A DNA stretch of 64,000 nt, taken from the NCBI GenBank assembly GCA_017535315.1, contig JAFXUD010000041.1, forward strand, positions 1 through 64,000, written 5' to 3'. Positions 23,399 through 38,147 of the stretch are shown here, piece after piece (the stretch's first letter is position 1; each line of letters starts with the position of its first letter). Origin of the DNA: Victivallales bacterium (GTDB lineage: Bacteria > Verrucomicrobiota > Lentisphaeria > Oligosphaerales > Oligosphaeraceae). The notes beneath the pieces were generated by a model. That model had not been told where the DNA came from. It made no database searches and worked only from the letters and a program-made list of their open reading frames with translations. Made by a program: the position numbers and the translations under genes.

Positions 23399-25339
23399 TT
23401 AGTGCCTAATACCAGCAGGAAGGGCAAAGCGCGGCATTTCGAAATGCTCTGGTCCGTTTGCCCGATGCGCCTCGCCATTCTGCACTTTGATGGGTTCTGG
23501 AAGCTTGAAAACGCATCGCCCCAGGGGTTCTTGGAGTTCGCTCATGCCGTCGCAGTCGATGGTAATCTCGTAAATGCCGTCGGGGACATTCTCGAAAGAG
23601 GCGCGCAGGCATGCGTAATTCTGCGTATAGACAATGCTTGTTTTGTGTGTTGGAGCCTCGCTGTTTTCAGGACTTAGGAGCATCGTGAGTTGTGAATGAG
23701 GCGTAATCCAGAAGTTTTCAAGTACAAGTTTGTTGTCTGCAAAACGTTCTCGAAAGTTCAGAAAAAGTGTGTTTTTTACCGTAGGTTCTTCTATTGGTTT
23801 CCATGGGGGAAAATCAAGGTAGCGTATCTGCTCTCGGCGGAGTGAGCCGTCGCCTGCAACAGGTGGTTGGTCGAACAAAGACGGCATCTCTGTTTCAATG
23901 CCGTATTCCTTCAAGATGGTACCTGCGATATCCGAGACCTGGCAGGGAATGGAGTTGAAGAGCAGGTTGTCGTGGCGCTCGTTCCTGCGCTTGATGAACG
24001 CGATGTTGTGGATGTCGTATTTTTCCGTGTGGTCCCCTACAAGCACAATCGTCGAATTGTCATAAATGCCCAGTTTTTTCATCTGCGTGACAAGCAACTC
24101 AAAGTTTTTAAGGCTTCCACGCAACTGGCGGTACTTCATGCTGCGTTTATTCCGTTTCAGGTTTTCGTCTGTGAGGACGATTTCATGTGCCCCTTGCAGA
24201 TGCAGGTACTTGAATATGGCGTCCTTTTCTCCCAGACAGGACTCCGTTTGCAGTTTTCGATAAAAAACTTGGTCAAAGGTTTCATTGTCATTGTGCTTGA
24301 GAGGTTTCTCAAAGGTCATGAAGGGAAGGTCGTCTTTGTCACGCCACAGCGGCTTCAGGAAGATGGGCACCATTTTCTTGAGCTGGAAATGGACTATTTT
24401 GGTGAAGGAGGCCCGTCTATAGGCGACATGCGCAGGGATGGAGTTGTCGATGACCTCTGGCGAATAGCTGATGGTTGGAAGAAGAAAAGGATAGCCTTCA
24501 ACACGGAATCCCTTTCTTTTCAAGGCTTTAAAAAGAGAGGAATCCTGTGCGAAAACCCGTGTGATATAGTCGCTGTGGTTGTCATCGGCTGGGATGCGCA
24601 GTGACTTTCTGGGGAAGTTGATGCCCGTCACCATCGCGGGAACCGCATACATTGTCCAGGGGAGCGGGCTGATCATCCTGTCAAAGCAGGTGAAGTCATG
24701 CAGGGCCTCCTTAAGGTCTGGGTATTTCTCCAGGACCTCCTTGCAAATCCCCTCTCCCATGCAGTCAACCACGAGGATAATCACATTCTCCTTCCTGCCG
24801 AAGACAAATTGGTCCTTTTCACTTATGGCGTACTCCTTGAAGTTGTAATGCGGCTCCTCGAATTTTGTCACCGCCGACAGTAGAACGCAACCCTGGGTCA
24901 GAAGGATGATGCAGGAAAGCTTGACGGTGTGCCTTTCAATTTGACGATGCAGGAACCAGGCGCACATGAATGGCACCGCCCACAGCGCAAGCAGGATGAC
25001 GGCCAAAAACAGGAATTCCCAGGCAAACCAGGAGGCGGGAGTGTAATTGAGGAAGAAAGACGACCAGATATGATACTGAAGAAATAGGTCGATGCTCAAG
25101 GCCAGAAGTATGCCTGGCATATAGGAGATCGCCTTGCCATTGGCAAGGCTCAACAACGCAGCGGTGCCAATGGCCAATGCCAGGTACACGAGCCCAAAGA
25201 AGAGCAGGGTGCCTCCAAGGCCAACCGTGAATTGGTCTGGATTGTCCAAGTAGATAAGCAACCCCGACGTGCAGATGAACGAAAAGAGCGCAGTAGTGCC
25301 CCAGATGAGGCGCGAAAAGCGTTTGAAGAATGCTTTCAT
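23399..25339 (-). CDS. membrane-anchored alkaline-phosphatase-superfamily transferase/hydrolase
   Basis: This 646-aa protein has about five N-terminal membrane helices (10-155) and then a periplasmic alkaline-phosphatase-fold domain. D192 (ILVVDCMGEG) is a first metal ligand. T229 (SPLPWTMYAVPAMVTG) sits at the nucleophile position, as in phosphoethanolamine and glycerol-phosphate transferases that use Thr. LVGDHTEKYD provides the second metal motif. It is likely to add or remove a phospho-group on a surface glycan or lipid; the substrate is not identifiable. It ends a three-gene minus operon 20 bp after the methyltransferase. Confidence 0.75.
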   Translation of the reverse strand: MKAFFKRFSRLIWGTTALFSFICTSGLLIYLDNPDQFTVGLGGTLLFFGLVYLALAIGTAALLSLANGKAISYMPGILLALSIDLFLQYHIWSSFFLNYTPASWFAWEFLFLAVILLALWAVPFMCAWFLHRQIERHTVKLSCIILLTQGCVLLSAVTKFEEPHYNFKEYAISEKDQFVFGRKENVIILVVDCMGEGICKEVLEKYPDLKEALHDFTCFDRMISPLPWTMYAVPAMVTGINFPRKSLRIPADDNHSDYITRVFAQDSSLFKALKRKGFRVEGYPFLLPTISYSPEVIDNSIPAHVAYRRASFTKIVHFQLKKMVPIFLKPLWRDKDDLPFMTFEKPLKHNDNETFDQVFYRKLQTESCLGEKDAIFKYLHLQGAHEIVLTDENLKRNKRSMKYRQLRGSLKNFELLVTQMKKLGIYDNSTIVLVGDHTEKYDIHNIAFIKRRNERHDNLLFNSIPCQVSDIAGTILKEYGIETEMPSLFDQPPVAGDGSLRREQIRYLDFPPWKPIEEPTVKNTLFLNFRERFADNKLVLENFWITPHSQLTMLLSPENSEAPTHKTSIVYTQNYACLRASFENVPDGIYEITIDCDGMSELQEPLGRCVFKLPEPIKVQNGEAHRANGPEHFEMPRFALPAGIRH

Positions 25340-25359
25340 ATATATCTATCTTCGACTTA

Positions 25360-26706
25360 TTATGAAGCAAGCTCAATGAGAGAGCGTCCCGATTCGGGTA
25401 TGGGGATGACCTTGCAGAAGGCGTATTGGGTTTGAAAAGCCGCGCAGAGATTCTCCAGCGTCCAGTCCTGATAAATCTGTTCCCGTCCTCTAGTCAGTTG
25501 CTGGACTTGGATGTCGTCCAGCGGGATAAACTCGACTAGCGCACAGGGGGCCAACTTTGAAAAGAGGGCAACAATCTGTCCGATTGACCAGTTACCCGTG
25601 ATGCGAAGATGGTGAATCAGGGCCAGCCCCATTACTATGTCAGCTTTGGTGCGGCTGAAAAACGAGCTGCGCTCTTCGTTGAGAACGCCGAGGTCGGGCG
25701 ACGGATTGTTCAAATCCAGCAGCACGGGCTGCAGGTTGGTGTCAAGCCCTCTGCCTATCCGATAAAGCTCCTCCACGGCTCTGCCGTCGAAGTCCGCCGC
25801 AAGGACAAGTTCAAAGAACTCGGCGGCGATCTGGGAGAAAAGGCCGCAGTTTGCACCCAGGTCAACAGCTGAACGGCCTTTGTGTTTTTCGCAGAACTCT
25901 CTGACTGCTTGGCGTTTGAAGGCGAAGCTGGTGTCCAAGTAGCTGGTTTTGCTATAGTAGTCGGCCCATAGAGTGCATTGTTTTGGGGGCTTCAGAGAGG
26001 AAAGAAGAGTGTGGAGTTCATGTATCAAGGCGAGGAGCCTTGCCTTGGGCAGTGCTGTCTTGTGGCTTGGTTTTCTGCTCAAGGAGTAGCGCTGTTCCAT
26101 GAGCGCATGAAGGTGAATGTGGATTAGGGGATTGATTTGGAGCCAAGTATGCCAGGGAAGTAGTCGGGATGCAAAATCCAGCGGAATGCCGTCAACATTT
26201 TCGCGTAACAGCTCCAGGCAACGCAAATCCACCTTCTGCATCAGAAGCAGCGGGGCGAGAAAATGCATCACGAACTGCCGATAGGCGCGCCAGGGCGTTC
26301 CTTCCTGATATAGCTCGAAAGAGGTATGGTCGAGAAAAATGGGATGGCATCGCTGGAAGGCGACATTAAAGGCCGTTGCATCCTTTAGAATCATTCCTTT
26401 GTCCAGTGCCTCCAGCATCAGCTTCAAAGTCAGGATTCCCGCATCTCGCAGTTGGCTGAAGCACCATTCGTAAGGGTAGGAGATGTATGGGAGTCTGTTC
26501 AGGTGAAGCACGAAACCTTCGGCATTTGACGTGTGACGGCTGAAAGCAACGATTTTTCCGTCTTCCATCAGACGCTGTGCCAGACCACTTTCTGTGAACC
26601 GCTCGAAGCTGGCGGCGCCAGGCGGGAGGAGTTGTCTGAACAGCTCTCCGTCCTGCTCGAAAACATACCCCGCTGGGTCGCGGAATGATGAGGGCAGTTG
26701 GCTCAT
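25360..26706 (-). CDS. SAM-dependent methyltransferase with kinase-like N-terminal region
   Basis: This 448-aa protein has a class I methyltransferase domain at about 255-440 with SAM-binding motif I VDLGANCGLF at 281-290. The first 250 residues are related to the N-terminal part of NoeA-type proteins. They carry LKDATAFNVAF (107-117) followed by IFLDHTSFE (123-131), which resembles the catalytic-loop and metal-binding Asp pattern of protein-kinase-like folds. The ATG overlaps the stop of the upstream 52-aa gene by 4 bp (ATGA), implying translational coupling. With its neighbours it probably decorates a surface polymer. That role is an inference from context. Confidence 0.75.
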   Translation of the reverse strand: MSQLPSSFRDPAGYVFEQDGELFRQLLPPGAASFERFTESGLAQRLMEDGKIVAFSRHTSNAEGFVLHLNRLPYISYPYEWCFSQLRDAGILTLKLMLEALDKGMILKDATAFNVAFQRCHPIFLDHTSFELYQEGTPWRAYRQFVMHFLAPLLLMQKVDLRCLELLRENVDGIPLDFASRLLPWHTWLQINPLIHIHLHALMEQRYSLSRKPSHKTALPKARLLALIHELHTLLSSLKPPKQCTLWADYYSKTSYLDTSFAFKRQAVREFCEKHKGRSAVDLGANCGLFSQIAAEFFELVLAADFDGRAVEELYRIGRGLDTNLQPVLLDLNNPSPDLGVLNEERSSFFSRTKADIVMGLALIHHLRITGNWSIGQIVALFSKLAPCALVEFIPLDDIQVQQLTRGREQIYQDWTLENLCAAFQTQYAFCKVIPIPESGRSLIELAS

Positions 26707-26861
26707 TGGTGTGGCAATTTTGTCTTCTGGCTTTCCTGGATTGCCTTTTGGGGCTTGCCTTTCACCAGGGAGAGGATGTTCCTGAAAAAGAACAACACGG
26801 TGAAGAAAGTGGCGGCTATGACCTGAAGAAGCATGCTCCCTGTTCCAGCATCAATGTACAT
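26703..26861 (-). CDS. 52-aa single-pass membrane peptide (MYIDAGTG family)
   Basis: This small protein begins MYIDAGTGSMLLQVIAA and continues into one hydrophobic helix (about 10-30), then a short basic/polar tail. Small proteins starting MYIDPGTGS are recurrent in bacteria near polysaccharide-modification genes, and this fits that pattern. The frame is open upstream to 27074 through a tandem repeat, but homology begins at ATG 26861 and AAGGA lies just before it. Its stop overlaps the methyltransferase start by 4 bp. A role as membrane partner of the downstream enzymes is an inference. Confidence 0.7.
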   Translation of the reverse strand: MYIDAGTGSMLLQVIAATFFTVLFFFRNILSLVKGKPQKAIQESQKTKLPHQ

Positions 26862-26925
26862 GGCTTTTCCTTGATGAATCGTGGTATTCTGCGGAGAAAA
26901 CGCTTTGTTCTCCCAAAGGGGTCTT

Positions 26926-27006
26926 TCTTCTAGGCTTTCTAGATTATCTAGTTCATCTAGATTGTCTAGTTCATCTAGATTGTCTAGTTCATCTAGACTG
27001 TCTAGC
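26926..27006. repeat. 9-bp-phased TCTAG tandem array (nine units)
   Basis: Nine consecutive 9-mers, each ending in a CTAG step, fill 26926-27006. The regular part alternates TTGTCTAGT and TCATCTAGA, so it reads as an 18-bp repeat. It lies upstream of the 52-aa membrane-peptide gene, about 65 bp from its start, and could be in its 5' leader. CTAG is usually rare in bacterial genomes, which makes the density notable. Confidence 0.9.
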
Positions 27007-27112
27007 CAAAATCTATCCTTTTGGGGAACATTGTATAAAAAAACTTGTCTATGATTTATGCAAATTAAACGCAAAGAACAAATGTTTATTGTATCAAAGT
27101 TTTTTGAAAAAT

Positions 27113-36512: not shown

Positions 36513-36599
36513 AAGCTTTTTTCATAAGTAACATCTGTCGGCAATCCTGCGATGCCGTCAGGGCAATTACAGGTACGCAGGAAAAGGAGAAAAAGAATA

Positions 36600-38147
36600 A
36601 TGGCGGCAACAAAGAAACCAGCAACCAAGAAGGCGGCATCAGCAAAAGAGGCAAAGGCTCCAGCAAAGAAGCCTGCGCCCGCAGCAGAAAAGTCAGCTAC
36701 ACCTGTTGCGGCGGTCAGGACTGCACCCGCAGTGGCGAAGGCGGCTGCACCCAAGAAGCCGAACCTGATTCTCATCGGCATCGACTCCTTGATTTCCACC
36801 CACATGAGCTGCTATGGCTACAAGAAGCTGACCACTCCCCATATCGACAAGTTTGCCGAAGGCGGCACGCTGTTTGAGAATCTCTTCTCACCGCATATCC
36901 CCACCACCCCAGGTTACGCTTCCATGGTCACGGGACTTGACTGCTTTGGCACCAACACTGTTGCTCTTCGTCACAAGGGAGAGATTGAGGGTGAGACACT
37001 GGCGGAGATTCTCGGCAAGGCTGGCTATGAGACCACCAGCGTCGGCTTTCAGGGCAACCCCGCTTCACGCGGCTACCAGAATTACCTCACCTACCACAAC
37101 TGGGGCTCCATCAATGAGGGGCGCCTCCCGAAGGCGCAGAACCTGAACGCTGTGGCGCTGCCCGAGCTGCGCCGCCTGGCGGCGGGCGACAAGCCCTTCT
37201 TCCTTTTCCTGCGCCACATGGACCCGCACTCCCCTTATCTGCCCCCCGCACCATTTGATCGGATGTTCTATGAAGGGAATGAATTCGACAAGAAGAATCG
37301 TTCCATGGAACCTGTCTTTGCCTTCAAGCCCTTTGCGGATTACTTCCGTTCCTGGATGCCCTACAGCGAGGTGACCAAGGACTACATCACTGACAAGGAC
37401 TATGTCATCGCCCAGTACGACGGCGCTGTCGCCTATATGGATGCCTGTATCCAGAACATCTTCACCACCATCAGCGAGCTTGGGCTGGATGACAACACGG
37501 TGGTCGTCATCAACTCCGACCACGGCGAGACCCTCTACGACCACGACTGCTACTTCGACCACCACAGCATCTACGATAACACGCTGCGTGTCCCGACCAT
37601 CATCAAGTACCCAGGTCACATTCCCGCTGGACTGCGCGTGAAGGGCTATTGCCAGCACAAGGACCTGCTTCCCACCCTGGCGGAACTGATGGGCTTCAAG
37701 CTCCCGACGGAAGTCGATGGCGAGAGCCTGATGCAGCTGGTGCGCGGCGAGAAGGCAAATCTCAGCTCCGAATTCTACATCACGGAATGCACCTGGATGC
37801 GCAAGCATGGCTGGCGCACCCCGCACTGGAAGCTAATCCGCGCCCTGGAGCCTGATTTCCACTTCAAGCCCGCCGTGGAGCTCTACGACCTCCTCCTTGA
37901 CCCCGAGGAGAACCATAATGTGGCGAACGAGAACCCCGAAATCGTCAAGGCCCTGACCAAGCGCATGGAGAACTGGATTGCCAAGCGCGAGGCGGAGACG
38001 GGGCGCAAAGACCCGATGTTCACGCAGGAGTGCTGGCATGGCGCGAAGGAGGTCGGCCCTGCCTTCAAGTCCAGCTCGCAGGCCTACAACACCCTCCACA
38101 TTGGAGATCCCAAGCAGGCGGCGCAACTTCAGGAGAAGAAGGGTTGA
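36600..38147 (+). CDS. sulfatase-fold enzyme with Ala/Lys-rich N-terminal tail
   Basis: This 515-aa protein has an alkaline-phosphatase/sulfatase domain from about residue 54. Asp62 (ILIGIDSLIS) is a metal ligand, TTPGYASMVTG (102-112) is the nucleophile region and INSDHGETLYDH the second metal site. Where sulfatases have C/S-x-P-x-R, this reads T102-T-P104-G-Y106, so formylglycine cannot form and Thr is the likely nucleophile, as in phosphodiesterase relatives. Residues 1-53 are almost only Ala, Lys and Pro, like a histone-H1 tail, with no signal peptide. ATG 36600 has AAGGAG upstream. It is 5 bp before a dehydrogenase gene. Confidence 0.8.
   Translation: MAATKKPATKKAASAKEAKAPAKKPAPAAEKSATPVAAVRTAPAVAKAAAPKKPNLILIGIDSLISTHMSCYGYKKLTTPHIDKFAEGGTLFENLFSPHIPTTPGYASMVTGLDCFGTNTVALRHKGEIEGETLAEILGKAGYETTSVGFQGNPASRGYQNYLTYHNWGSINEGRLPKAQNLNAVALPELRRLAAGDKPFFLFLRHMDPHSPYLPPAPFDRMFYEGNEFDKKNRSMEPVFAFKPFADYFRSWMPYSEVTKDYITDKDYVIAQYDGAVAYMDACIQNIFTTISELGLDDNTVVVINSDHGETLYDHDCYFDHHSIYDNTLRVPTIIKYPGHIPAGLRVKGYCQHKDLLPTLAELMGFKLPTEVDGESLMQLVRGEKANLSSEFYITECTWMRKHGWRTPHWKLIRALEPDFHFKPAVELYDLLLDPEENHNVANENPEIVKALTKRMENWIAKREAETGRKDPMFTQECWHGAKEVGPAFKSSSQAYNTLHIGDPKQAAQLQEKKG

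Follow-up and report, generated by a model that had tools for sequence, protein, structure and literature searches.

The window analyzed here is a stretch of 64,000 nucleotides from a Victivallales bacterium (contig JAFXUD010000041.1, positions 1 to 64,000), the minus strand of which carries three closely spaced genes encoding a small membrane peptide (SP), a fusion of a kinase-like domain to a methyltransferase (MT), and a membrane enzyme of the alkaline phosphatase superfamily (AP). Computational comparison of the sequences places this module with NoeA and NoeB of the alfalfa symbiont Sinorhizobium meliloti. Tentatively, we regard the trio as a NoeA/NoeB-type glycan-decoration module, in which phosphorylation and methylation resembling that by WbdD of Escherichia coli O9a would be combined with SP as a membrane gatherer and with AP on the outer face.

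Relationship to NoeA and NoeB

A tblastn search of plasmid records with MT returned 65 matches, mostly from S. meliloti; the listed matches from this species share 33-34% identity with MT over 98-99% of the query, and those that are annotated are NoeA. NoeA scores 410 bits with the MT family profile and retains 40 of the 43 conserved MT residues tested, including the D/N/D set of the kinase-like domain and the HH pair of the methyltransferase, and the AP profile detects NoeB (E 6e-24). The gene order in record CP140882.1 is nodL, a 71-residue protein matching SP (E 3.9e-14), noeA, and noeB, and the same order is found on a Rhizobium plasmid. The SP-family open reading frame (ORF) that separates nodL from noeA in S. 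meliloti (L086, 4760-4975) is annotated "hypothetical protein." PMC9048898 describes noeA and noeB as host-range nodulation genes, the products of which are only hypothesized to modify the Nod factor; a truncated noeA is reported in a nodulation-deficient strain of S. meliloti (PMC4053727).

The Lani_1194/NoeA kinase family of about 2,000 homologs was described from Legionella in 2022 (PMC9758233). In the main text of that paper Lani_1194 is kinase-like, with Arg for K72 and the ion-pair Glu not found; a methyltransferase is fused in 94% of the homologs; Lani_1193 and Lani_1195 are neighbors in 65% and 38%, respectively, of 816 neighborhoods; and NoeA and NoeB are named as homologs, NoeB having an alkaline phosphatase fold like the neighbor Lani_1195. 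The window module shows the features of this family, namely a kinase-like domain with a C-terminal methyltransferase, full-length homology, and a NoeB-type neighbor. The kinase and AP parts of our finding are already in print there, while the SP motif, the link of SP to CDP-glycerol-transferase-like enzymes, and co-occurrence when the genes are unlinked are apparently new. A literature search found no paper containing MYIDPGTGS, YIDPGTGS, or YLDPGTGS.

Co-occurrence of the three families

The grouping of SP, MT, and AP exceeds chance, as the trio is found together in relatives that, judging by their record titles, belong to some two dozen phyla, and reversed loci, used as a control, gave no match to the SP or AP profile. 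A profile search detected SP in 74 of 82 MT loci and AP in 72 (E<=1e-8), counts that are partly circular for SP since its profile was seeded from 51 of these loci, the AP profile likewise having been seeded from these loci. SP lies directly upstream of MT, on the same strand and within 145 nt, in 68 of the 82 loci, and AP directly downstream on the same strand in about 50. Eight loci lack SP: in four (L027, L043, L060, L079) the start of MT is no more than 300 bp from the end of a contig, the SP of the short locus L002 is present in the longer L083, and L012, L018, and L021 have MT without SP. A strict regular expression requiring an initial Met had found the SP motif in 3 of the 82 loci only, and would wrongly have spoken against co-occurrence; the shortfall stems from a signal peptide preceding the motif in most relatives, as clustering and the profile revealed.

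In 59 relative genomes, MT was found in 12, AP in 14, and SP in 15. All 12 MT genomes possess SP and 10 possess AP (Fisher 4e-10 and 9e-7, kinship ignored), and MT adjoins AP in seven of the 10 genomes having both. The three genes lie on separate contigs in G005 and G015, and in G012 SP adjoins AP with MT elsewhere, so that the association persists where adjacency is lost. Exceptions were AP without MT in G010, G019, G022, and G023 (64-85% complete), with SP adjoining AP in the first two, and MT without an AP recognized by the model in G057 and G058. Two SP genes occur in the latter, each immediately 5′ of a large membrane ORF in which sulfatase-like motifs can be seen by eye; no Pfam model matched these ORFs.

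Of 288 genomes from the phylum, 20 contain MT, 22 contain SP, and 19 contain both (Fisher 1e-25); SP occurs in three of the 268 genomes without MT, and the sole MT genome without SP is G317. Fifteen of the 25 SP places in these genomes adjoin MT and four adjoin AP, one of them on the opposite strand; the remainder are the G058 pair, one fusion to a CDP-glycerol enzyme, one neighbor of a sub-threshold relative of such enzymes, and two SP genes standing alone (G005, G015). The fusion, in the same-class genome G052 (L098, 1056-2300), joins an SP segment to a CDP-glycerol glycerophosphotransferase-family protein (32.1 bits; cut-off 22.1), and in G141 (L106, 1399-2857) the SP gene directly precedes and overlaps the sub-threshold CDP-glycerol-transferase relative (19.5 bits).

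The original prediction, made from the letters of the window, had named a non-kinase fold without a nucleotide site and a lack of co-occurrence as the outcomes that would speak against it. Neither arose, and the co-occurrence is strong.

Features of the three genes and their products

That prediction had likened the strings KDATAFN and LDHTSFE, which are MT residues 108-114 and 125-131, to the catalytic loop and metal site of a protein kinase. An alignment of 64 MT members (the window protein, its paralog, and 62 of the 80 relatives fetched; mean column identity 58%) reveals that R24, YPYEWCF (77-83), D109, N114, D126, W139, and Q144 are invariant in the N-terminal domain. The full-length model has a pLDDT of 93.4. 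Since fold searches with it were filled by the methyltransferase domain, residues 1-242 were predicted alone from the 64 sequences (pLDDT 94.2, pTM 0.91) and searched separately. All 50 matches listed by Foldseek were protein kinases, with a best E of 2.6e-5 and TM scores, by query length, of 0.32-0.46, and all 50 listed by the VIA fold search were kinases, pseudokinases, or kinase-homology chains (Z 9.2-10.0, rmsd 3.7-5.0, 181-205 residues aligned). Searching Pfam, NCBIfam, and PDB with the MT sequence alone gave nothing useful, and a sequence profile of the kinase domain matched no PDB chain. Judged by the model, the domain is a clear but divergent kinase fold, and at the level of fold and of the conserved D109, N114, and D126 the prediction was borne out. 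The spacing of these three residues (5 and 12) resembles that of D351-N356-D369 in WbdD (5 and 13; PMC3482155).

R24 falls in the strand that precedes helix 1 in the model of residues 1-242 and is retained in NoeA; its assignment to the place of the kinase Lys is that of PMC9758233. An invariant Arg at this position, the lack of an ion-pair Glu as given for Lani_1194 in the main text of that paper, and the absence of a PDB sequence match for the kinase-domain profile would suit a pseudokinase, or a kinase-fold enzyme of other chemistry such as AMP transfer, leaving the methyltransferase alone to modify the glycan. We consider this unlikely, as D109, N114, and D126 are invariant in 64/64 members and kept in NoeA, which is unusual for a dead kinase.

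The C-terminal domain of MT matches class I methyltransferases in a fold search with the model, and Methyltransf_23 is detected at E<=0.1 in 51 of the 64 members, the window protein having no match at that limit. The methyltransferase recognized in the original prediction is thus corroborated by fold searches and by family models in relatives. D282, N286, G288, D307, H365, H366, E392, and D398 are invariant in the 64-member alignment, and the MT family profile aligns H365-H366, weakly (E 0.14), with H132/H133 of WbdD, which are needed for methylation by that enzyme (PMC3482155). Phosphate methyltransferases among the matches include WbdD (4azs, Foldseek E 3.5e-6), BCDIN3D, DhpI, and MePCE (6dcc; Z 17.8, rmsd 3.2, 185 aligned). 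With respect to a role in defense, a single weak PADLOC match was obtained (mad2, E 4e-4, residues 212-374). Phage records gave no match.

The window AP matches Pfam Sulfatase below the cut-off (E 5.8e-4); six of seven AP relatives scanned pass it, and L055 gave no match. Over 68 AP sequences the nucleophile column (T229 in the window) holds Thr in 61 and Ser in 5, and further conserved columns are D, H, H, D, and H. By hydropathy, the window AP and 25 of 43 aligned members have five predicted membrane spans, and the others have four (12 members), three (3), or seven or eight (3). Searched against PDB, the AP profile matches sulfatases (6s21, E 6.4e-15), LtaS (4.8e-6), and, weakly, EptC (0.016). 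The conserved columns and these matches are congruent with the membrane phosphotransferase-type third gene originally proposed. AP lacks the Cys or Ser that formylglycine sulfatases have at the modified nucleophile place, having T229 instead, and Thr in place of Cys together with the membrane spans favors a phosphotransferase or phosphodiesterase. An extension C-terminal to the catalytic domain (window 23399-23870) is also seen in L003 and L005 but in few other members of the alignment.

In a further explanation, what the module produces or alters is a substituent that is either a polyol-phosphate (teichoic-acid-like) or derived from phospholipid; AP would be the transferase, as in LtaS/EptA, with MT priming the acceptor. 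LtaS is among the AP profile matches, SP adjoins AP without MT in G010 and G019, and SP is fused to (G052) or lies beside (G141, sub-threshold) a CDP-glycerol glycerophosphotransferase-family protein. The CDP-glycerol cases, however, are only two of the 25 SP places, and AP scores 16.6 bits against a cut-off of 970 on the LtaS model (NCBIfam NF053595), so that we rate this explanation as quite unlikely.

The SP motif was counted over 76 matches, of which three with other motif letters were left out by the regular expression. Among the 73 remaining, Y, D, and the second G of the motif are present in all and Q in 72. The residue preceding Tyr is Ala in 53/73 and there is an Ala two residues earlier in 40/73, giving an AxA that looks like a signal-peptidase site. 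Most relatives carry a signal peptide 5′ of the motif; the window SP is a short form without one, in which Met takes the place of the Ala of the others, giving an identical end. Since the single hydrophobic span has a basic stretch after it, the N-terminus probably faces outward and the tail inward. A second subtype, AYIDPNTGG, occurs in L064 (11556-11792), where it adjoins further sulfatase-type genes, and in L051 (968-1210).

The extreme conservation of this short end, which lies immediately past what looks like a signal-peptidase site (Tyr preceded by Ala in 53/73), might mean that SP is itself the substrate, phosphorylated, methylated, or covalently joined to glycan by its partners, an improbable arrangement given that the motif is probably outside and MT probably cytoplasmic, and that the SP segment is also fused to a presumably cytosolic enzyme. 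That fusion suggests an anchor role. We advance, as a rather speculative extension, that SP (Y[LI]DPGTGS) may be a portable membrane anchor or docking tag, which across bacteria would gather unrelated phosphate-handling glycan enzymes (the kinase-methyltransferase, the NoeB-type phosphotransferase, and the CDP-glycerol transferase) on one lipid-linked substrate, and an overlooked fourth gene of the S. meliloti nod operon needed for NoeA/NoeB function.

The coordinates of the trio are collected in Table 1. The coupled layout originally described was confirmed, the SP and MT genes overlapping by 4 bp and AP following MT after 20 bp. AAGGA is positioned 7-11 nt 5′ of the SP ATG; an alternative in-frame TTG at 27074 is a less likely start, as it would add a low-complexity run. 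A tandem array (26938-27005; 18-bp unit, 3.8 copies, 96% matches) lies upstream of SP, in frame with this TTG; no such array was found ahead of SP in L089 and L090, the two loci of the same genus that were examined. Elsewhere in this genome, positions 10975-14221 of L083 (contig C49) carry another complete set with the order changed to SP-AP-MT, and its MT is 64% identical to that of the window. The closest named relatives are from Lentisphaerota, the locus of Oligosphaera ethanolica being among them. A second sulfatase-type ORF is located at window 36528-38144 on the plus strand, and matches the AP profile weakly (E 8e-8).

Table 1. Features of the SP-MT-AP locus (window coordinates)
Feature	Position	Strand	Basis
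SP, 52-residue membrane peptide, MYIDAGTGSMLLQ...	26703..26861	minus	ORF; SP profile member, 51.6 bits
SP conserved motif YIDAGTGSMLLQ, residues 2-13	26823..26858	minus	letter counts over 73 motif-bearing matches
AAGGA, ribosome-binding-like, for SP	26868..26872	minus	read from sequence
MT, kinase-like/methyltransferase fusion, 448 residues	25360..26706	minus	ORF; 64-member alignment; model pLDDT 93.4
MT residues 1-242, predicted protein-kinase-fold domain	25981..26706	minus	model pLDDT 94.2; listed matches are kinases
MT residues 108-131, putative catalytic loop D109..N114 and metal D126	26314..26385	minus	invariant 64/64
MT residues 243-448, class I SAM-dependent methyltransferase domain	25363..25980	minus	fold search; family models in relatives
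AP, membrane alkaline-phosphatase-superfamily enzyme, NoeB-like, 646 residues	23399..25339	minus	sub-threshold Pfam Sulfatase; profile vs PDB
AP residues 11-161, five predicted membrane spans	24857..25309	minus	hydropathy
AP residues ~185-490, catalytic domain with D192, T229, H380, H385, D436, H437	23870..24787	minus	conserved columns

Proposed role and comparison with known systems

The proposal of glycan decoration draws on the WbdD analogy, the glycan-type neighbors, nodL beside noeA, and the links of SP to phosphate-transfer enzymes. Glycosyltransferase, methyltransferase, and sugar-nucleotide families top the tally of MT-locus neighbors (95 genes scanned, no background comparison), and the nodL operon, which contains NoeA, NoeB, and, here, SP, modifies a secreted lipo-oligosaccharide (PMC9048898). 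MT would be cytoplasmic, its divergent kinase domain phosphorylating a glycan or lipid-linked glycan before export and its methyltransferase domain then methylating it, as WbdD does on the mannan end. SP, in the membrane, would gather the enzymes of the module there, and the membrane-anchored AP, through its Thr nucleophile, may act at the outer face to transfer, complete, or trim the phosphate-containing group. The computations show the three families and how they co-occur, both folds of MT, the conserved catalytic residues, and the kinship with NoeA and NoeB; from these we infer activity, substrate, order of steps, topology, and the role of SP.

Several points weigh against this proposal. 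The resemblance to kinases is modest in fold, with Z about 10 and TM below 0.5, and an Arg assigned to the place of the usual Lys, with no recognized ion-pair Glu, makes kinase activity uncertain (PMC9758233, main text). A specific tie to phosphate methyltransferases was rejected, since CmoA, ToxA, and others tie with them and the resemblance does not discriminate; Z scores and HH conservation do not fix the substrate. The best-scoring solved relatives of AP are sulfatases, and no glycan gene directly flanks the window copy. The envelope-polymer capping module of the original prediction is, as a whole, partly supported; that prediction did not recognize the NoeA/NoeB family. The analysis ties noeA and noeB to a module of many phyla that unites a kinase fold with a methyltransferase and a small peptide of conserved sequence; the link suggests a concrete reaction for them, phosphate plus methyl on a glycan, and SP is a gene that work on the nod operon may have missed.

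LtaS and EptA possess N-terminal membrane spans followed by an alkaline-phosphatase-superfamily domain with a Thr nucleophile. AP resembles them and EptC in its N-terminal spans, its superfamily domain, and the Thr at the nucleophile place; unlike LtaS, it falls far below the LtaS model cut-off. WbdD, like MT, combines a kinase fold and a class I methyltransferase in one protein, with HH in the methyltransferase and D..N..D in the kinase (PMC3482155). The order in WbdD is methyltransferase (1-210), kinase (211-459), and coiled coil (PMC3482155), whereas in MT the kinase (1-242) precedes the methyltransferase (243-448) and there is no coiled coil; the sequence match is non-significant (E 0.14), and membership of MT in the WbdD family is ruled out by the domain order. 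The Lani_1194 family shares with MT the kinase-like domain plus methyltransferase and a neighbor with an alkaline phosphatase fold, and its Arg for Lys would correspond to R24; Lani_1194 is treated as a possible Legionella effector, and the SP motif is not described in the main text (PMC9758233). The S. meliloti set adjoins nodL and host-range genes, whereas the window set stands alone with no nod genes seen; in the nodL-noeA-noeB operon of pSymA, the order SP-MT-AP is the same as in the window.

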